Positions 3,001 to 15,540 of a stretch of 64,000 nucleotides of DNA are shown here, piece after piece. The stretch comes from Deltaproteobacteria bacterium. GTDB lineage: Bacteria; Myxococcota_C; UBA6777. The stretch covers positions 20,258 through 84,257 of the forward strand of contig PCBK01000017.1 in assembly GCA_002731275.1 (NCBI GenBank), read 5' to 3'. The notes below the pieces were generated by a model. That model saw only the letters and a list, made by a program, of their open reading frames with translations. It made no database searches and was not told the origin of the DNA. The position numbers and the translations under genes are program-made. The first letter of the stretch is position 1; every line of letters starts with the position of its first letter.

Positions 3001-3366
3001 CAAAACTTCATGCGCGTTGGTATTGAAGGTAGCGGTAAATCCTGGACACCACCAGGCTCCAAAACTGTCACCTGTCCTGACATCAACAGCGTCACCAAAC
3101 ACTACAGTTGCAAATCCGCTCCCGTACTCTGTTTCATGAACGCACAAAAGACACGTACCTACTTCGGTGTTCAAACAGAAGCAAACAACAGCGTCTCTTG
3201 GCAGCTCGTCAAGCGTGGCTGTGAGCTTGCTGAAGAAGTCGAGTTGTTGCGTAATAATACAGCGAACGTCGAGCGTTCGGACATCGAACGTAAAGAGAAT
3301 GAGCTTCGTCTGCTTGAGACCGTACTCACCTACATGCAGTACTACGTCTCGATCTATGGCGGTTGA
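1..3366 (+). CDS. Zinc metalloprotease, DUF5117/DUF4953 type (5' end outside window)
   Basis: This is the first of two tandem paralogues. The reading frame is open from base 1, and its first residues (LVQPLALSK) match residues inside the next protein just after that protein's lipoprotein signal, so the true start lies upstream of the window. The zinc site HECGH...H is encoded at 1786-1818 and a Met-turn-like SIMDY follows, as in metzincins. The third-ligand region reads HECGHTLSLTH, so the usual glycine of HExxHxxGxxH is Ser. The protein is over 1100 residues and is expected to be a secreted or lipid-anchored peptidase; its substrate is unknown. It ends 47 bases before the paralogue and is probably co-transcribed with it. 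The family assignment rests on the motif, the size and the RHNF-like surroundings seen in the paralogue. Confidence 0.8.
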   Translation, partial: LVQPLALSKKQFKGEWYYMKTVYEAPFESGFFNGQGGWPLGAKIRWEITERYLYAFNASPNVRNTDSELTPLAAWPITSHFDIKPAINYMTGEPSNVIIEERRDGLPWYQRKYMRVMWERQSLSDWTDIFQTYYKWMGVVRVEPANYVAPQKVEMSSDYMTFVSDDLITKIYDSYYNMVIKEIPMSSYRVRTRHAFRKVKTSTYSPKEYNDAMFAKFGNFRTTVVRYNQQRGIVDWSYKFYASRHNVATQEELDKYAADNTPEDQQKPKQVVYYLSPDFPEELMEGVRKVEKGWNEAFQHALQRKDQVFEIRCNGYKMMDGKAECDAAKTGIRRDLGDLRYNFIWWVNPPQAGGLLGYGPSLADPDTGEIVHGSAYIYGAPLRQIVDSYMVLYDMTTGRYKSEDIQNGVEYLNAAFNLNNNLPLALPNGSTQKAINPTVTGPKVRTLNTPAKILTRIKSPGYLQRMLQVKKIDQASITASLSMIDNHPLAKQTLMHDEMVQLAFPGLDPSAVLTNSDAKVQEILNRYHPVEMLKPHRLRDMLNTFLAPSKMNMYMADYYDDVALQSFFKYHIQKKTPRNELRKRIMEFLFVSVTAHECGHTLSLTHNFKGSTDEYNYHDSYHDLAKDGKVKCQDDDKCPPDMKVPASTSKEDITAVQRFYRNASIMDYAGEYYDDTLGVGKTDKAAIAFIYGGLVEKAVSDPREQGELIKWSVEVERKNQNPNDPLKLRPFRFCSDYRVGQDPLCQRWDSGPGAVDIVQRIIKSYDRTYPLRYFRRGRRSYSMNAAFYRNFFGFQHIASIYQDWTYRVITQPGYKKTKDFEDKLQAIQTGFQFFTRILTTPRVGQHEFDKISQTWQLSATSEDIHRVKVDIPVGVARYMFSTVQDGYYGIFRLRRSGSLYDKLLSLMSMSIRSWGYYNNDVNWIYTNFYDLFTEDTTELFQQGISSVWKPDSPLLFKMEVEENGKKIQAPIEPGWHPFLQYNSMIYGLALLNNQLSDRTFQNFMRVGIEGSGKSWTPPGSKTVTCPDINSVTKHYSCKSAPVLCFMNAQKTRTYFGVQTEANNSVSWQLVKRGCELAEEVELLRNNTANVERSDIERKENELRLLETVLTYMQYYVSIYGG

Positions 3367-3413
3367 TCATGAGAAACAGAATACAAATCCTCTTCGGACG
3401 GAAGGAGTATAAA

Positions 3414-6400
3414 ATGGCTACCCACCGAAAAAAGTTGTCCCTGGTGCTCCTATTTTTGGGCGCACTAGTACTTGGGGCTTCAGTGGGAACAGGCTGTGCC
3501 ATTCAGCGAGGTGAACGCAGTGTCGTTCAACCTCTCGCGCTGAGCAAGACCCAATTTCAGGGTGAATGGTACTACCAAAAAACAATCACTGAAGCGCCAT
3601 ATGACGCACCTGGCGTATTTATCGGATCGACCTCCACTGGTTACAAGATCCGTTGGGAAATCACAGAGCGTTATCTTTACGCTTTCACCACACAACCAAA
3701 CGTCCGTAACGCGGACTCCACAGTTGCACCAGTCGCGGCGTGGCCCATCATCGGTCACTTTACGATCCGCCACCGTATCAACTACTCCACAGGACAGCCC
3801 TCAAACGTTGTCTCTGAGGACTACATTGATAAGCCCTGGTATCAACGCCCACACTTCCGCGTTGCTTGGGAACGTTCCTTCATCACAGACTTCTCTAGTT
3901 CCTTCTGGATCTACAGAATGTTCGGATATGTCGTAGGCGAAAGACCCGTCAACGTACGTCCCGAAAAAGTCCGCATGTTGAAAGACTACATGGACTTTGT
4001 CACAGAAGAAGTCATCAGCCCAGGCGTCGGCGCACTCATTGGAAAACTCAACACTTCCATGCCAGTGTCCGCATACCGCATCAAGTACCGTCACTCGTTC
4101 CGCAAGGTTGGTAAGTCCACCTACACACCACAACCCATGAGCGACGATCAATTTGAAAAATTCGGATTCTTCCGTACAGCGATCATCAACAACCACATCG
4201 ACCGTGGTCTCGTTGACTGGAGCTACCAGTACTATGCAAACCGACATAACGTCGCGACACAAGCAGAGCTGGATAAGTACGAAGCCGACAAAACTCCTGA
4301 AGCAGATCGCAAACCCAAGCAGATCGTCTACTACCTCTCACCGGACTTTCCCGAGAAGTACAAAGACACTGCTCACCTGATCATGGAAGACTGGAACAAA
4401 GCGTTCCAAAACGCGCTGGGTCGTAAAGATCAAGTCGTCGTCCTCCACGAAAATGACTTCGGTCTGCCTGAAGGACAAAAGCGCGAAATCGGTGATATCC
4501 GATACAAGTTCCTCTACTGGGTCGCGAAACCCATCTCCATGGGACTGCTCGGATATGGACCTAGCTTCGCAGACTACGACACTGGTGAGATCATCTCCAG
4601 CGCCGCGTACGTCTACGGTGCAGTCGTCGACCGCGTCGTCAACCGCTTCATGCTTTACTACGATATGGTCAAAGGAACCTATACCGACGAAGAACTTCGT
4701 AACGGTAAAGATTACCTCGACATCATCAACAACTTCGGCAACAGCACAAACGGAACAAGCCAACCTCTGACCGCCAAAAATGGCGTGAAGATTATGCCCC
4801 CTGCATACAAAGGCTTTGACATCCAAAAAGCTCACAACTACGTGCACACTGCTGAATTTAAGCACAAAACACAGCTGCTTAAGAAATTGGACCGCACCGC
4901 GATCCAAGCGCGTATGTCAATGCTCGACAACAAACCCCACCTTCAGTGGGCGATGATGAGCGATGACATGTTGCGTGGCCTGTTCCCACAAACAGAGCCC
5001 GCTGCACTTCGCCAATCAAACAGCGACACAGCGCGTAACATCCTTGAGTCCTACTTCAACCCTGCAAAATTGACTCGCATCACGGGTCTTCGCAAGTTGA
5101 TGAATGACGCAGATGAGTTCTCCAAGCACAACGCAATGCTCGCTAACTACGTTGACCCTGCGTTGCAAAAGTTTGTCGTCGCCAACAAAAACCTCAGCCG
5201 CTCCGAGCTCGCTGATAAGATGGCACGCATGATCTTCCGTGGTACAGAAGCACACGAGATCGGTCACACACTTGGTCTTCGCCATAACTTCTCCGCTTCC
5301 GCTGATGAGCCAAACTACTTCCCCGAGTACTTTGAGCTTCAGAAAAAGCAAGGTGGAAATACTCCAGGTGATGACAAAGACAACCGTCACTCGTGGTTCT
5401 ACATGTACTCATCTATCATGGACTACCACGGTGAAGTCTATGGTGATGCAGTCGGTATCGGTAGTTATGACTACGCAGCGATCCGCTATGGTTATGCCGG
5501 AAAACTCGAACTGGATAACACAGATGATTTGACACAGTATGTCAAAAAGGTCGCTTCAGCGTTCAAAACAACTGAGTACTACAAAGATCTCTACACAGAA
5601 CTCAAGATCGAAGAGAGCGCACTGAAAACAAGCAAAGGTCTCGATGGTCAAACCATCTTCGACGCCAACCAGAGCTTGCTCAAGGTTACAGGTGTTAAAG
5701 CAGATGGCTCCACCACTTTGATCATGAACTTGACCGCTGATGACCTCAGTGGACGTCGTGCACTTCAACGTATCAAGGCGATGTTCAACATCATCCCCCA
5801 AGATGCACGTCTCTTCGCAGATGGTTACCTCTTCATCGATGATGGAAAGACACCTCTGAAACGACGCTTCTACCGATTCTGCTCTGACGAGCTCGTCGGT
5901 CAAAACCCATACTGTAACCGCTTCGACTCCGGTTCCAACCCACGCCAGATCGTCGACAACATGATTCGTCGATACGACGGTGTGTACCCACTGGTGAACT
6001 GGAGCCGTGGACGTCGTTACTTCCGCTTGGGTTATGGATACCTCTCCTACCTGATCGGTCGTTTCCGTGTTGTCAACGACTTCTATCAAAACTGGATGTT
6101 CCGCGTCATCAACGAAGCCAACTTCGACGGTAGCGCTGAGTACTACAACCAGCTCGCTGCGATCTCCAAAGGTCTCGGCTTCATCAGCCGTGTCATCCAC
6201 ACGCCTGAGCCAGGAAACCACGTCCTCGACACCGATCAAAATATGTACGTTGCGTCGCCCACCAAAACGGCCAACAACATTAACATCCCCATCGGTATCG
6301 GACGTTACTTCTACAGCCGTCTGCAACAAGATGAGCTTGGCCTCGCGATGTACCGCTTTGATCGCATCGGTACCATGTACGACAAGTACGTGGCGATGAT

Positions 6401-6971
6401 GACACTTGGTATTCGCGACTGGGGTCTTGTCCGTAACCGCTTGAACTTCTTCTACGTCAACTTCCTGGATTACTTCTCCAGAGATGATGTCACGGATATG
6501 TTCACAGGTTCGATCTCCGGTATCTTCGAGAAGAAATTCGCGATGACACACGACGACAAGATGATCGCTCCCAACTTCCACCCTGTCCTCCAGTACTTCA
6601 GCATGTACATGGCTATGACCATGCTCAACAGTGGGTTCTTTGGTAACACCTTTACCCACTACATGACTGTCGCAGCTGTTGGTAGTGGTGATAGTTGGAC
6701 ACCTCCACCAGGTGCCAAGACCATCTCGTTCTCCAACACCTCCAACACCATGACCTACTTTGCTGTCCAAACACGCGACAACAAGAGTATCGCTTACAAG
6801 CTCGTCAAGCTCGGAAACGACTACTCGACGAAGCTCAAAGAGTTGCGTGCAGCACAGCCCACGTCCGCTGTCAACAACGTCAAGATCAAAGAGCTTGAGT
6901 CCAAGCTCCAGTGGGTTGAGACGGTCATCAACATGATGAAGCTTTATGTAGACACTTACTTCGAAGGATAA
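3414..6971 (+). CDS. Lipoprotein zinc metalloprotease, DUF5117/DUF4953 type
   Basis: A 1185-residue protein homologous along its length to the upstream gene. I chose ATG 3414 because GGAAGGAG lies just upstream and the protein then begins with a basic, hydrophobic signal ending in a Cys (near residue 32), as in a lipoprotein. Upstream in-frame starts at 3363 and 3369 would add an unlikely leader. The zinc motif HEIGHTLGLRH is at about residues 614-624, a full HExxHxxGxxH, followed by a SIMDY Met-turn. Known family members are large bacterial zinc-dependent metalloproteases of unknown substrate. It probably faces the periplasm or the cell surface and is matured by the lnt gene product encoded at 50441. 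A strong terminator follows directly. Confidence 0.85.
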   Translation: MATHRKKLSLVLLFLGALVLGASVGTGCAIQRGERSVVQPLALSKTQFQGEWYYQKTITEAPYDAPGVFIGSTSTGYKIRWEITERYLYAFTTQPNVRNADSTVAPVAAWPIIGHFTIRHRINYSTGQPSNVVSEDYIDKPWYQRPHFRVAWERSFITDFSSSFWIYRMFGYVVGERPVNVRPEKVRMLKDYMDFVTEEVISPGVGALIGKLNTSMPVSAYRIKYRHSFRKVGKSTYTPQPMSDDQFEKFGFFRTAIINNHIDRGLVDWSYQYYANRHNVATQAELDKYEADKTPEADRKPKQIVYYLSPDFPEKYKDTAHLIMEDWNKAFQNALGRKDQVVVLHENDFGLPEGQKREIGDIRYKFLYWVAKPISMGLLGYGPSFADYDTGEIISSAAYVYGAVVDRVVNRFMLYYDMVKGTYTDEELRNGKDYLDIINNFGNSTNGTSQPLTAKNGVKIMPPAYKGFDIQKAHNYVHTAEFKHKTQLLKKLDRTAIQARMSMLDNKPHLQWAMMSDDMLRGLFPQTEPAALRQSNSDTARNILESYFNPAKLTRITGLRKLMNDADEFSKHNAMLANYVDPALQKFVVANKNLSRSELADKMARMIFRGTEAHEIGHTLGLRHNFSASADEPNYFPEYFELQKKQGGNTPGDDKDNRHSWFYMYSSIMDYHGEVYGDAVGIGSYDYAAIRYGYAGKLELDNTDDLTQYVKKVASAFKTTEYYKDLYTELKIEESALKTSKGLDGQTIFDANQSLLKVTGVKADGSTTLIMNLTADDLSGRRALQRIKAMFNIIPQDARLFADGYLFIDDGKTPLKRRFYRFCSDELVGQNPYCNRFDSGSNPRQIVDNMIRRYDGVYPLVNWSRGRRYFRLGYGYLSYLIGRFRVVNDFYQNWMFRVINEANFDGSAEYYNQLAAISKGLGFISRVIHTPEPGNHVLDTDQNMYVASPTKTANNINIPIGIGRYFYSRLQQDELGLAMYRFDRIGTMYDKYVAMMTLGIRDWGLVRNRLNFFYVNFLDYFSRDDVTDMFTGSISGIFEKKFAMTHDDKMIAPNFHPVLQYFSMYMAMTMLNSGFFGNTFTHYMTVAAVGSGDSWTPPPGAKTISFSNTSNTMTYFAVQTRDNKSIAYKLVKLGNDYSTKLKELRAAQPTSAVNNVKIKELESKLQWVETVINMMKLYVDTYFEG

Positions 6972-8929: not shown

Positions 8930-10402
8930 TCACATGACTCGAACGGGGATTTTTGGAAGCTCTTTTTCACGAGCAAGGGTCAGACGACGATAACCATCGA
9001 GCAGTACGTACTGTTCGCCTTCTCGTCGGATACGGATGGGGTGAAGCTGAAACTTTCCGGCATCGAAAAGCTCTGAGATCTCTTCATACCGTTTATCTTT
9101 GACATCATAGTCATCAAATTGCACAGGGACGAGGATCTCTTCGAGCGCCAATTCTTTGGGGTGATTGTTTGGTAGCTCAGGTGACTTCTCCAAAAATGCC
9201 TTGAGATTCGTACTCGATTCGAGGAGAAACTCGTTCCCTTCAGAGGCTTTGGCGACACTGTGTTTGAAGACAAATACAACCCCACCTTCATCGAGCTCCA
9301 ACAAGAATTGAAAACGATCGGACCAACCCACTTTCCCTTTTAACAACAACCCATCGTGTGTCACGAGCGAAAGGGAAGAGCCGCTTTTGAGAAGATCATC
9401 GGAGAGCTCAATCCGCCGGGAAGGCTCACGTGGCGGATATTGCAACAAAGACATCTGATCGAGATTGACATGTATCTGGCTGAGAATGGCGTCTGCTTCG
9501 GAGGAAACATAGACAAAAACACATCCGAGCTTGCGCAAACGAAGGGCTTCTTGGTGTTCCGTTTTCATGATCAACATGAGCGGCTGGATCTCTGTAATCA
9601 CCCCTTCAAAGCGAGGAGAGTGGAATCGCCAAACGGAGACAGAGTTCCCCTCTTCACTACGATTTCGCAGAAACTCATCCCCCATCGAGCCGAGATGTGC
9701 TTCTTGTTCGAGTCGCTCAGCGAGTAATTTCATCCGCTCTTCTTGTAATTCCTTCGCCCGATCACGCTCTTCAGAAGTACGTGTCGAGAGGGACTTCTTC
9801 TTTTTCTGTGCGCGACGCTTCAGGAACTCTTCATAGCTGATATTTTCTCGCAATAATTGCCCGGCAACAGCACGAGTCAGGTCGGGATATCGGCTCACAA
9901 GACGATCAAGCTTTGCTTTTCGTTCGGCCTCTTTGGAGAGACGATTTGAGCGTTTTTTCCCACCACCGCGCGGACCACCGCCACGAGGACCACCACGTGG
10001 TGGTGGCTTTCGGCCTCTGTGACGCTTTTGCTGCCGCTCTTGCTGTCGTGCGCGTGCCCGCGCTTTTCTTTGCTCTTCCGCACGGCGTTCGAGAAACTCT
10101 TCGGGGGTGATATTTTCTTTAACGATGAAGGTCGCTTCTTCTTCCGAAATGTTTTTATGTTGAGAACAAATGAAGGCGATCATACGCTTTTCTTTCGCGA
10201 TACGTCGGGCTTCCCGTTCTTCTTCTTTTTTCGCGTGCCACTCTTCAAAAGAGATCCCCATGTTCAAAATTTCGAGCGCTTCTTCGCGCTCAAGGGATGG
10301 GTGATCTTGGAGAAGTCCCGCCAGAAGAGCTTTCTTACTGGTCTTGTTACTTTTCTTCTTTTTTGAGGGGGTAGGTGCGCTTTTTTTCTTACGTTTTGCC
10401 AT
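8930..10402 (-). CDS. RGG-rich, Hfq-like and ParB-like fusion protein
   Basis: A 490-residue protein starting at ATG 10402 behind AAAGGAGCAGAG; the longer frame to 10492 lacks a ribosome site. Seen in order: a Lys-rich head (1-25); three related helical repeats ending in I-S/T-x-E-E-F/W-L-x-R/K-R (about 33-58, 81-108 and 171-198); an RGG-type stretch between the second and third (about 129-150); a charged coil (205-240); a possible beta-rich unit (256-300); a segment at about 343-386 that resembles Hfq/Sm (T-x-D-G-x3-L-x-G-x-V ... F-x-F-K-H, compare Hfq's YKH signature); and a ParB/sulfiredoxin-like end (418-490) with LLDGYRR. Hfq binds small RNAs, RGG boxes bind RNA, and ParB-type folds bind DNA or NTP. 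RNA or nucleic-acid binding is therefore the inference. The ParB-like end is the firmest call; the Hfq similarity is by eye. Confidence 0.65.
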   Translation of the reverse strand: MAKRKKKSAPTPSKKKKSNKTSKKALLAGLLQDHPSLEREEALEILNMGISFEEWHAKKEEEREARRIAKEKRMIAFICSQHKNISEEEATFIVKENITPEEFLERRAEEQRKARARARQQERQQKRHRGRKPPPRGGPRGGGPRGGGKKRSNRLSKEAERKAKLDRLVSRYPDLTRAVAGQLLRENISYEEFLKRRAQKKKKSLSTRTSEERDRAKELQEERMKLLAERLEQEAHLGSMGDEFLRNRSEEGNSVSVWRFHSPRFEGVITEIQPLMLIMKTEHQEALRLRKLGCVFVYVSSEADAILSQIHVNLDQMSLLQYPPREPSRRIELSDDLLKSGSSLSLVTHDGLLLKGKVGWSDRFQFLLELDEGGVVFVFKHSVAKASEGNEFLLESSTNLKAFLEKSPELPNNHPKELALEEILVPVQFDDYDVKDKRYEEISELFDAGKFQLHPIRIRREGEQYVLLDGYRRLTLAREKELPKIPVRVM

Positions 10403-10625
10403 CTTCTCTGCTCCTTTGTACCAGGGAGCGTCCGTTCTTGATAGCGTGGAACGACGCCCGTGGACCATGCATATTAGCTCACGAGCGAACACCTGTCCAG
10501 TCTTCTCGGAAGGTTCTAGATTTGAAAGGAGGCAAGGGACAAATACAGCACACCATCTGCATTGCAGAACAGCAAGCCAACAAGATGACCATTCGGTGCG
10601 TACAGAGATTTAGGGGGCGGTGACT

Positions 10626-11306
10626 TTACGTAGAAGAGAGCGCGGCTTGTGCCGTAAACAACTGAGGTTCTAGGCGACCAGTCTGCCCCTCTCGGATCAG
10701 CTGCATCAACCTATCCACGTGTTGTTCCTCCCGAAAATCGATGGAAGTCGTGTCGATAGAGATGACAGGTGTCTCCAGTGAGCGGGTAAACTCCGAGCTA
10801 TAGAGCTCGCTCAGTTGTGTGAGATACTGCGCATCCATCCCTTGCTCGTAGCTTCTTCCGCGAGCATGGATACGTTCGAGCAGGACCTGCACAGGAGCAT
10901 GCAAGTAGATGATCAGATCCGGAGTTGGCAGGGAGCGAGAGAGGATCGAGTACATTTGATCGAAGAGTTGAAACTCGTGTTTGTCGAGCGTCAAGAGCGC
11001 AAAAAGGCGACATTTTGGAAAGTAGTAATCGCCGATAGTGAAGCGCTGAAAGAGCTCCTCTTGGGCGAACGCTTCTTGTTGGCGAAAACGACCGAGAAGG
11101 AAGAAGACCTCCGTTTGAAATGCGTAACGTTTGCGATCTTCGTAGAACTTCGACAAGAAGGGATTGTCTTCAAATTGTTCGAGCATCAAACGTCCATTCA
11201 GGCGTTGTGCGAGCGCTTCAACCAGGGTCGTTTTTCCGACTCCGATCGGTCCTTCAACGATGACATAACGTGGAAAGTCATCGGAGGATTGACTGTGTAT
11301 ATCCAT
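10626..11306 (-). CDS. Deoxynucleoside kinase
   Basis: A 226-residue protein of the deoxynucleoside/deoxyadenosine-guanosine kinase family, which phosphorylates deoxynucleosides for DNA precursor salvage in the cytoplasm. The P-loop EGPIGVGKTT is near residues 18-27, an E-F-x-D-N-P-F-L-x-x-F-Y substrate motif follows, and the lid region has ARGRSYEQ. The start at ATG 11306 is preferred because AAGGAG lies inside the longer frame that begins at 11330. It is divergent from thiF and follows no obvious partner. Confidence 0.85.
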   Translation of the reverse strand: MDIHSQSSDDFPRYVIVEGPIGVGKTTLVEALAQRLNGRLMLEQFEDNPFLSKFYEDRKRYAFQTEVFFLLGRFRQQEAFAQEELFQRFTIGDYYFPKCRLFALLTLDKHEFQLFDQMYSILSRSLPTPDLIIYLHAPVQVLLERIHARGRSYEQGMDAQYLTQLSELYSSEFTRSLETPVISIDTTSIDFREEQHVDRLMQLIREGQTGRLEPQLFTAQAALSST

Positions 11307-11581
11307 CCAGGGCTCCTTTTCGACATCCAATCAGGGTACTTGTGAGCAGGCACAAGCCGCCCTACCTTAGCGGCTCTCTGGAGGGGTTGCAAGGATTCAA
11401 CAAAAGTCAGTACGCGCAGGACACACCGGCACCCCACCTAACCCCTTGTATCAACGCATAGACAACAAACCATTCAAAGCCCAAACAAAACGACAAGGAA
11501 GGCATCACCCCCGTCCATTGAGTATGCAAGGGACAACGTTTGTGGTAAAGAAGATCGCCTGTCAATCGAAAGGAGAAGCAG

Positions 11582-12610: not shown

Positions 12611-13086
12611 AAGGGATAGAAACAGAGGGCAAATGTGGGTGTCTTTTTCGAGGTTCACAGTGTGAACTAGGAATGTTTCAAGAAGCCGCCTACACTTTTG
12701 TTGATGCAAATACTTTCAGGAGCGAAGTGCGCCTCTTGATGTTGTGGAATGAGAACCTCATATCCACCCACACGCTCCATGATATCAAAGTGTTGTTGGC
12801 AATGCAGATGAAGAAAACGACATGATGTCGATGTCGCAAAAACCACCATTCATTGTTGCGATGAGAGTTCTTCTTGACGTGTGTGCGTAAATTGTGATAT
12901 CACACCGTGCTCTATGCGAAAAAACTCCCATATCGAATAAAGATTCGATTTTCTCAGAGGTTCAATCTTTAAACTTTGAATGCGACACATAAACAATGCA
13001 AAATCCCTCAGTGTCCAATGAGGCTTACAAGCATATCAAAGTGACCCAAGCATGAATTTTTCCCATCTTTGGAGGAATACAAACCC
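12611..13086. other. 476-base intergenic region with palindromes
   Basis: No convincing gene. GTTCACA/TGTGAAC form an exact 15-base palindrome at 12653-12667, and TGTGATATCACA is an exact 12-base palindrome at 12893-12904. A TTGACG about 18 bases before TATCAC (12875 onwards) could be a promoter overlapping the second palindrome and reading toward the lipoprotein gene. The last 100 bases are AT-rich leader. Confidence 0.4.
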
Positions 13087-15540
13087 ATGAAACATAGTCT
13101 GCGCCTTACAGGCCTCTTACTCGCAACCATTTTTAGCATCACATCGATGATGTATGCCTGTTCCCCCCCCCCTGCTGAATGTTCGGCCGACAAAGCCTGC
13201 CCAAGCGGGCAAACCTGCTCCTCCGAAGGCAAGTGTGTCTCCGATAACAAAGAGCAAGGCGATACAGAAAAGTCTGAAGAGAAAAAAGGCGAAGACAAGA
13301 AACAAGACGAACCTACCAAAGATGACACCGCTGATGGTGGTACAGAGCCCACGCCCGACACAGAACCTAAAAAAGATGGGGGAGTGTGTCCTCTAGGGTG
13401 CCCGGATTGTGATGGTGGTACGACACCAACAAACGAACCATTAACCCTCGGCACGAGCTGTACAGAGCCCTATAAAGGTGCTGAGTGTACCGCCCAGCAA
13501 GCATGTGACAGCGGTTCAACCTGCTTGAAACCCAACGCTTACGCGACAAAAACATACTGCTTCGTCGAGTGTACAGCAGACACAGATTGTAAGGCTGCTT
13601 CTGACAAAGCGGGCAAAACTCTCACTTGTCAGACTGTCTCAGGCAAAAAAGTCTGCGCTGAAAAAGAGAGCTGTGACAGCACAAAGAACCATCGCTGTAT
13701 CCAAAACGGAATCAACGATGTCGGTTACTGTTACAGGTCATGTAACACCGACACAGACTGTGATCAGGGACAAAAGTGCCAGGATGATAAATTCTGCGCG
13801 ACACGCGTCGCAGAGCTCGAAGCTTGTAACTACTCCAGACAAGCATTCTGTGATGCAGGACTCATCTGTCTCGTCAGCAACTCAGAGCAAACAGCCGGTA
13901 TCTGTTACAAACAATGTCAGCAAGAGCAACAATGTGATGCGACAAAAGACTTGACTTGTCGAGCATTTAACGCGAGCGACCCCACCAACAAACTCTGTAT
14001 GCCCAAGATCTACGATGGTCCTCTCTGTATCGGACAAACTTGTAACACATCCGCGACCGCAACAAACTGCCAAAAAGGCCTCGTTTGTGATGGAGGAACA
14101 TGTGTCAAAACATGTTCCAGCGCAGCGGACTGTGACACAGCTTCGGGTGAAGAATGTAAGATCGTCGACATCACCAAACCAAAAGTCTGTCTGCTCCCCC
14201 CCTCCGTCACCAAATCTGGCGAAAAGTGCAACAACTTTGACAAACGATGTGATGATACCAAAGGACTTAGCTGCGCGAGTATCACCGAAGGCAACTCCAT
14301 CTGTTTGAAGACTTGTGATCCCAACAAGACCAACCAGGCCACAGGAATCAACCCCGATTGTGACGCAGGTGACATCTGTCGTGCAACCCAAAACGGCAGC
14401 GCTTTCTGTCTCAAAGGTAGCGACAAAAACGGCTCCTGTGTCGTTCCCAACACATGTAAAAGCTCCAACGATGTCTGCGTTGGCTTCTCATCAGACGGTA
14501 CAGAGTCTTACTGTCTTGGACCATGTGATCCCAAAAAGAACAAAAGCGAAGACGACGAAAGCAACCCCGACTGTGCAGACGCACAAGGAAACTTGGGTCG
14601 TTGTGTCACGCTGACAAATGGTAGCGGCGCGTGTATCCCTTACCGACCCAAGACCAAAAAAGCCGGCGAAAACTGCGGAACAGACGGAAACCTCGTCGCA
14701 CCAGACTGTGAAGATGGCTTGCGTTGTGTCAACCTGGGTAGCGGTCCCACTTGTTACGTAGATTGTGACCCATGTACAGCCAAGCTCGACTCGACTGGAG
14801 AGTGGAAACACCCCAAATGTAACGGCGGAAAAGATGCTTGTTCTGCGCTTACATACTCAGACGGTCGCGCTGCGGGTGGTGTTTGTCGAACTTCCGGTGA
14901 CCCTGTCCTCGACGATGGAGAGTACTGTGACGAGCCTGGAAAAGGCTGTAAAGAAGGTCTTACCTGTGTCAACTTCTCCAACGAAGAAGGCGCACGCCCC
15001 ATCTGCTCTGGAGAATGTATCCCCGGCGAACAAGGACAGTGTAACGGCGGAAGTTGTGCTTCCCTTACAAGTGGTGGTGGTGTCTGCCTCCCACAAGCCA
15101 AGCGAAAAGTCGACCTCGGTGGCGAATGCCTTGGTACTCGCGGAACGGATGGCTTCCATGACTGTTTGGAGAAGAGCAAAGACGGCAAACCGCTCGTCTG
15201 TGCCCTCCCCGCCTTCGCAGGCGCCAAACGAACCTGCCAGATTTTGTGTAACCCTGTTGACGGGATTCAAAACAACACTGGATGTAAAGCACAAGGACTC
15301 AACAACCACCTCTGCCTCTCCGCAGATGAAAGAGATCCCAAAAAAGGTGCTTGCCTCGAAAAATGTCAGCTCATCGACAAGCTCCGTTGTAAAACAAGCG
15401 CTTGCCAACTTGGCGTCTGCCAAGAAACCAGCGTAGGACGACGTGGTGAGTGTACAACCGCCGCAAAAGAGAAAGAGTGTGCAGACACCTTTGGCGGTAC
15501 ATGTGTTGACAAAACTTGTATTGTCAGCCTTTGTAACTAA
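13087..15540 (+). CDS. Large Cys-rich repeat lipoprotein
   Basis: An 817-residue protein. ATG 13087 follows GGAGG and opens a signal peptide ending at Cys 25 (MMYAC). Next comes a Lys/Glu/Asp-rich linker (about residues 50-95), then a long array of disulfide-type modules with C-D-x-x-x-x-C and S-D/T-D-C motifs down to the C-terminus. No catalytic motif is visible. Such arrays in myxobacterial-type genomes are surface or outer-membrane proteins of unknown role. It is separated from the similar gene at 15637 by a terminator, so the two may be independently expressed although they are clearly of one type. Confidence 0.8.
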   Translation: MKHSLRLTGLLLATIFSITSMMYACSPPPAECSADKACPSGQTCSSEGKCVSDNKEQGDTEKSEEKKGEDKKQDEPTKDDTADGGTEPTPDTEPKKDGGVCPLGCPDCDGGTTPTNEPLTLGTSCTEPYKGAECTAQQACDSGSTCLKPNAYATKTYCFVECTADTDCKAASDKAGKTLTCQTVSGKKVCAEKESCDSTKNHRCIQNGINDVGYCYRSCNTDTDCDQGQKCQDDKFCATRVAELEACNYSRQAFCDAGLICLVSNSEQTAGICYKQCQQEQQCDATKDLTCRAFNASDPTNKLCMPKIYDGPLCIGQTCNTSATATNCQKGLVCDGGTCVKTCSSAADCDTASGEECKIVDITKPKVCLLPPSVTKSGEKCNNFDKRCDDTKGLSCASITEGNSICLKTCDPNKTNQATGINPDCDAGDICRATQNGSAFCLKGSDKNGSCVVPNTCKSSNDVCVGFSSDGTESYCLGPCDPKKNKSEDDESNPDCADAQGNLGRCVTLTNGSGACIPYRPKTKKAGENCGTDGNLVAPDCEDGLRCVNLGSGPTCYVDCDPCTAKLDSTGEWKHPKCNGGKDACSALTYSDGRAAGGVCRTSGDPVLDDGEYCDEPGKGCKEGLTCVNFSNEEGARPICSGECIPGEQGQCNGGSCASLTSGGGVCLPQAKRKVDLGGECLGTRGTDGFHDCLEKSKDGKPLVCALPAFAGAKRTCQILCNPVDGIQNNTGCKAQGLNNHLCLSADERDPKKGACLEKCQLIDKLRCKTSACQLGVCQETSVGRRGECTTAAKEKECADTFGGTCVDKTCIVSLCN

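Follow-up and report, generated by a model that had tools for sequence, protein, structure and literature searches.

The DNA analysed here, called the window, is a stretch of 64,000 nucleotides from a deltaproteobacterium (contig PCBK01000017.1, positions 20,258 to 84,257), and this study concerns a gene on its minus strand that encodes a protein of 490 amino acids (aa). The program-made list of open reading frames (ORFs) gives a frame of 520 aa, which begins at a GTG upstream of the ATG at 10402. We chose the ATG because of the GGAG before it and the like N-termini of the other members of the group, which share M-[AGS]-[KR]-[KR]; in the member P0003 this N-terminus lies 12 residues inside the listed start. 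The gene and its parts are as follows.

8930..10402, minus strand: gene of the tandem-Sm/ParB-like protein, 490 aa (ATG 10402-10400, stop 8932-8930)
10411..10414, minus strand: GGAG, Shine-Dalgarno-like, 8 nt ahead of the ATG, read from the sequence
10238..10315, minus strand: helical repeat 1, residues 30-55 (structure model and alignment of members)
10094..10171, minus strand: helical repeat 2, residues 78-103 (same basis)
9923..10045, minus strand: Gly-rich basic linker with three RGG triplets, about residues 120-160
9824..9901, minus strand: helical repeat 3, residues 168-193 (same basis as repeats 1 and 2)
9497..9697, minus strand: Sm copy 1, residues about 236-302, of a diverged Hfq type
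9239..9400, minus strand: Sm copy 2, residues 335-388 with the Hfq-like segment at 340-384, of Hfq type, with the signature D-R-F ... F-K-H
8933..9169, minus strand: ParB/sulfiredoxin-type tail, residues 412-490, with G-Y-R-R (GxxR) at 470-473

The domain order is helical repeats with a basic, Gly-rich linker, then Sm copy 1, Sm copy 2 and the ParB/sulfiredoxin-type tail. The original prediction, made from these letters alone, had named three helical repeats, an Sm fold at 340-390 and a ParB fold at the C-terminal end. All three were recovered, the Sm fold by an Hfq profile match and a structure model, and the ParB fold by the model of residues 412-490 and the GxxR motif. The single Sm domain of that prediction did not hold: residues 250-300 belong to a first Sm domain that had been missed. 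The domain combination is real and not due to chance; the protein is an Hfq-type variant that is a member of neither Hfq nor ParB proper, and it belongs to a set of double-Sm proteins from several bacterial lineages.

Relatives were sought among 5.8 billion proteins with the full-length sequence, with residues 225-490 and with a profile of the C-terminal part. The full-length query gave 3 matches (P0002-P0004) among the best 7,996 candidates, so few probably because of low-complexity words; residues 225-490 gave 2, and the profile gave 8, of which 5 were new (P0005-P0009). A tenth row, L003, was added from another genome of the phylum; it corresponds to SBHC01000073.1 (locus L009), filed as 'Deltaproteobacteria bacterium isolate M3003'. 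A search of the window's own genome for 16S rRNA gave no match. The members are 37-98% identical to the 490-aa protein. The source of P0005 and P0007 labels both as 'sRNA-binding regulator protein Hfq'; P0008 comes from an 'Acidobacteriota bacterium'. Pattern scans of genome contigs gave no locus at first (two patterns, one of them Lys-rich) and one locus in a second scan. The C-terminal 261 aa had no tblastn match at E <= 0.01 in phage or plasmid collections, and three proteins had no PHROG match at E <= 0.01.

We found that, in profile comparisons based on an alignment of 26 rows, each Sm copy matches Hfq much better than 60 controls do. Copy 1 had nearly been discarded as an Sm domain because alignments of nine rows gave just 2-3%, a result that the wider set reversed. 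In the predicted models, copy 1 forms five strands after the end of a long helix, and this Hfq fold of an N-terminal helix and five strands is also seen in both copies of a paralogue described below; copy 2 has the five strands with no helix of at least 4 residues directly ahead. The F-[K/R]-H of copy 2, which corresponds to the Y/F-K-H of the beta4-beta5 turn in Hfq, occurs in 10 of 10 members. In copy 1 only the K of this motif is kept, as K291. By Foldseek, the best Hfq rows superpose at 0.9-1.5 A, helix alpha-1 included. The scores of the 490-aa protein against the Hfq models lie below the curated cut-offs (21.1 bits against 27 for PF17209, and 17.8 bits against 61.7 for TIGR02383); one relative, L077, reaches 30.0 bits with the Pfam model and is thus above its cut-off. 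Moreover, a 490-aa chain with two Sm copies departs from the single short Sm domain of Hfq.

The nearest folds to the model of the tail are sulfiredoxin and ParB of Myxococcus xanthus. The tail has the ParB_N fold with the GxxR of Box II, which is kept in all ten members, where it stands as [DN]-G-[YF]-R-R inside one of the best conserved stretches. All ten proteins terminate 13-14 residues past this motif. Because the tail ends directly after its last strand, it is without the Box III and the helix-turn-helix (HTH) of ParB, and the C-terminal dimer domain is missing as well (10 of 10 members). The sulfiredoxin catalytic Cys sits in a G-C-H-R motif; its place is taken by Tyr or Phe in every member. 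As judged from sequence, therefore, the tail is without the parts needed for DNA partition or for sulfiredoxin catalysis. No ParB_N match was obtained for the 490-aa protein at E <= 10 (the cut-off of the model is 26.3 bits), and 3 of the 10 members gave matches at E <= 1, the best at 7.9e-4. A survey of the ParB-CTPase fold from 2025 identifies GxxR as Box II and reports that orphan forms frequently lack Box III, that fusions to further domains occur in about 70% of the bacterial members, and that members bind CTP, ATP or GTP (PMC12704722). Its main text has no mention of 'Hfq' or 'Sm-like' (PMC12704722).

The N-terminal half is less uniform. Residues 129-148 of the linker have a predicted local distance difference test score (pLDDT) below 50, and the linker is variable among relatives. 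The RGG stretch that had been singled out earlier is not conserved, since 5 of the 10 members have no RGG at all, and the protein is thus without the conserved RGG cluster of RGG-motif proteins. Pfam scans also gave matches to NAD_binding_2, RecG_N, N4BP1-UBA and DUF433, which may be due to chance or may partly be a clue to the helical repeats.

The tandem-Sm module was found in 16 of the 386 genomes surveyed, from 11 families, and in four of the 16 it is fused to a cold-shock domain. The same ParB end stands on tandem Sm domains in two genomes outside the window's phylum. Among the non-member tandem-Sm proteins compared, L035 and L036 carry the tail and the others do not. The genome of the window also encodes a paralogue of about 500 aa (G000:C3:528129-528653, locus L002) with a FimV-like tetratricopeptide-repeat start, a low-confidence stretch rich in R, Q and G, both Sm copies and no ParB end; it is present in all five genomes of the phylum. 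The original prediction had looked to other Myxococcota for the same architecture, and this was not borne out: the window's phylum is represented by only five genomes in the set used, one near relative is filed under Deltaproteobacteria (M3003), and another under Acidobacteriota. In two genomes of one genus there is a second, short stand-alone tandem-Sm gene (L075 in G102:C172 and L074 in G368:C12), whose frame contains a TAA in G102 and is open in G368.

Canonical Hfq exceeded the cut-off in 61 of the 386 genomes, leaving 325 with no such match. It did so in none of the 16 tandem-Sm genomes (one-sided Fisher p = 0.06), nor in any of the five genomes of the window's phylum, all five of which have CsrA. 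With this p value and genomes that are not independent, the mutual exclusion of Hfq and tandem Sm is a trend only. The Hfq search is also imperfect, as G047 had no match in the survey, yet its L077 passes the cut-off on a direct scan.

The protein was compared with the known systems nearest to it. Like Hfq (PF17209, TIGR02383), it has an N-terminal helix and Sm fold in copy 1, and its copy 2 retains D-x-F and F-[K/R]-H; it differs in its two diverged copies per chain, its long basic helical arm and its ParB-like tail. The double Hfq of NF010691/PRK14091 (176 positions) likewise has two Hfq-type domains per chain; however, both of its copies are plain Hfq, whereas copy 1 here is strongly diverged, and with its model, whose cut-off is 270 bits, the 490-aa protein scores 12.8. 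Fused double Hfq was reportedly noted long ago in Novosphingobium. Three genomes of family f112 (G115, G252 and G379) have a double Hfq in a frame of 173-188 aa, which looks like the PRK14091 type, plus a separate single Hfq gene. In a different multi-Hfq arrangement, G014, G162 and G301 (family f11) have three Hfq matches per genome (e.g., G014:C1:48856-49533), two of them in adjoining longer frames of 167-191 aa. The cyanobacterial Hfq-related NF047718 and Hfq_1 (PF21979) also describe a divergent Hfq-type domain and weakly matched copy 1 of L037 as well as copy 2 of other proteins, but they are single-domain models of 61-64 positions with no tail. The family of LIC_13076 (NF047624) was rejected as a home: L040 and L080 matched it weakly, and none of the 30 genome places of that family was a tandem-Sm place. 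Proteins with the ParB-CTPase fold (PF02195; ParB, Noc, PadC, SerK, SbnI and sulfiredoxin) share the fold of residues 412-490 and Box II, but the tail here lacks their Box III, HTH, dimer domain or sulfiredoxin Cys and is joined to tandem Sm. Archaeal plasmids are described as carrying fusions of a zinc finger with an Hfq-like domain, which also join such a domain to a second nucleic-acid domain but have one Hfq-like domain and neither helical arm nor ParB-like tail (PMC3543421). The 'Hfq-like domain' of one review concerns ProQ (PMC4347634). Among the papers listed by our literature searches, which covered no bioRxiv preprints and only a minority of subscription journals, we came across none that dealt with a fusion of Hfq to ParB or to a cold-shock domain.

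Five neighbouring genes of the window were scanned with Pfam and gave dNK, ThiF, Met-zincin and two genes with no family; there was no parA among these five, the other window genes being left unscanned. The neighbours described are listed here.

10626-11330, minus strand: gene of a deoxynucleoside kinase (PF01712, E 1.7e-37), co-directional with the tandem-Sm gene and 223 bp upstream of it
3363-6971, plus strand: ORF of 1202 aa that matches Met-zincin over a short stretch (PF16313, E 3.6e-11) and contains HEIGHTLGLRHNF
13069-15540, plus strand: Cys-rich ORF of 823 aa with a lipoprotein-like start, judged by eye

Neither dNK nor ThiF was seen by eye among ORFs of at least 200 aa around the relative at L009. 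The neighbours in nine tandem-Sm loci were mutually unlike by eye, except L039 versus L040, and no pathway emerged. In these two loci (G320, L039:3982-4994; G043, L040:4128-5057) a CxxCxxCC gene (PF03692, slightly under the cut-off) follows the cold-shock/tandem-Sm gene on the same strand, and beyond it, on the opposite strand, lies a small gene of 104-111 aa with a common C-P-C-A-R-C stretch.

We therefore consider, with moderate confidence, that tandem Hfq-type Sm domains with a ParB-type tail make up an RNA chaperone that binds RNA in a nucleotide-responsive way and whose trimer would form an Hfq-like ring of six domains. RNA binding is proposed because both copies resemble Hfq, the aromatic, K and H residues are kept, and relatives carry cold-shock fusions; the RNA-linked reading of the original prediction stands as an interpretation. 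Hfq is described as forming a hexameric ring with a proximal pore that prefers uridines and a basic rim patch that is required for annealing (PMC6561178). With two Sm copies per chain, three chains would be needed for a ring of six. In copy 1 the RNA pockets would be built from K291 and position 275, where most members have an aromatic residue, and in copy 2 from F364, K380 and H381; the basic helical arms and the linker may add RNA contacts. Binding of a nucleoside triphosphate (NTP) by the putative NTP-binding tail would alter ring contacts or RNA release, and in the window's lineage the 490-aa protein and its paralogue may assume part of the role that Hfq plays elsewhere.

Rather unlikely is that the tail is a pure protein-protein scaffold that binds no nucleotide, RNA binding by the tandem Sm being otherwise unchanged. 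Seventeen of 28 tested proteins with the ParB fold are reported to bind no NTP, and PadC uses the fold without switching (PMC12704722). The parts that lie downstream of GxxR in ParB are missing here, and the paralogue and the compared tandem-Sm proteins other than L035 and L036 have no such tail. On the other hand, the conservation of GxxR and of the residues around it in all ten members exceeds the needs of a loose scaffold. Improbable, in our view, is a nucleoid or DNA-segregation factor whose ParB-like end would link to DNA or ParA and whose Sm part would bind DNA or merely oligomerise. The fold of the tail is nearest to sulfiredoxin and M. xanthus ParB, the N-terminal half is basic, a crystal structure of Hfq with double-stranded DNA exists (5uk7), and Hfq has been called a nucleoid protein (PMC3543421). 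However, the nucleoid link suggested earlier found little support, because the tail stops so soon after its motif and has no HTH, Box III or dimer domain, and because a full-strength ParB_N protein of 92.8 bits, one of five ParB_N matches in the genome, is encoded elsewhere, so that partition need not rely on the 490-aa protein. The scanned neighbours include no ParA, and the cold-shock fusions favour RNA. Very improbable is a Tudor-, KOW- or PilZ-like small-barrel adaptor of no Hfq ancestry or RNA role, its likeness to Hfq being convergence of a small beta barrel. In its favour, small barrels resemble one another, and Tudor pairs, KOW pairs and MrkH (ranks 1 and 7) have similar Foldseek E-values. 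Against it, these rows superpose at about 11-16 A, far from the best Hfq rows, and profile comparison points to Hfq for each of the two Sm copies, with one member over the Hfq cut-off.

Many bacteria have no recognised Hfq, and the tandem-Sm family, mostly under annotation cut-offs, is a concrete candidate for what may serve in its place. We tentatively suggest, as a possibility that we would not yet bet on, a separate bacterial Sm branch of three-chain pseudo-hexameric rings, in which RNA pockets of two kinds would alternate. These proteins would replace Hfq where it is missing and be exchanged among modules of cold-shock, helical-repeat and ParB-type, the last of them NTP-binding; with the ParB-like tail, the protein would be an NTP-gated RNA chaperone. 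If true, such a chaperone would be the first link between the ParB-CTPase fold and an Hfq-type ring, uniting nucleotide switches and RNA chaperones in one protein. Moreover, the two diverged copies would illustrate how an asymmetric ring arises from a symmetric one, as in the Sm/Lsm rings of eukaryotes.
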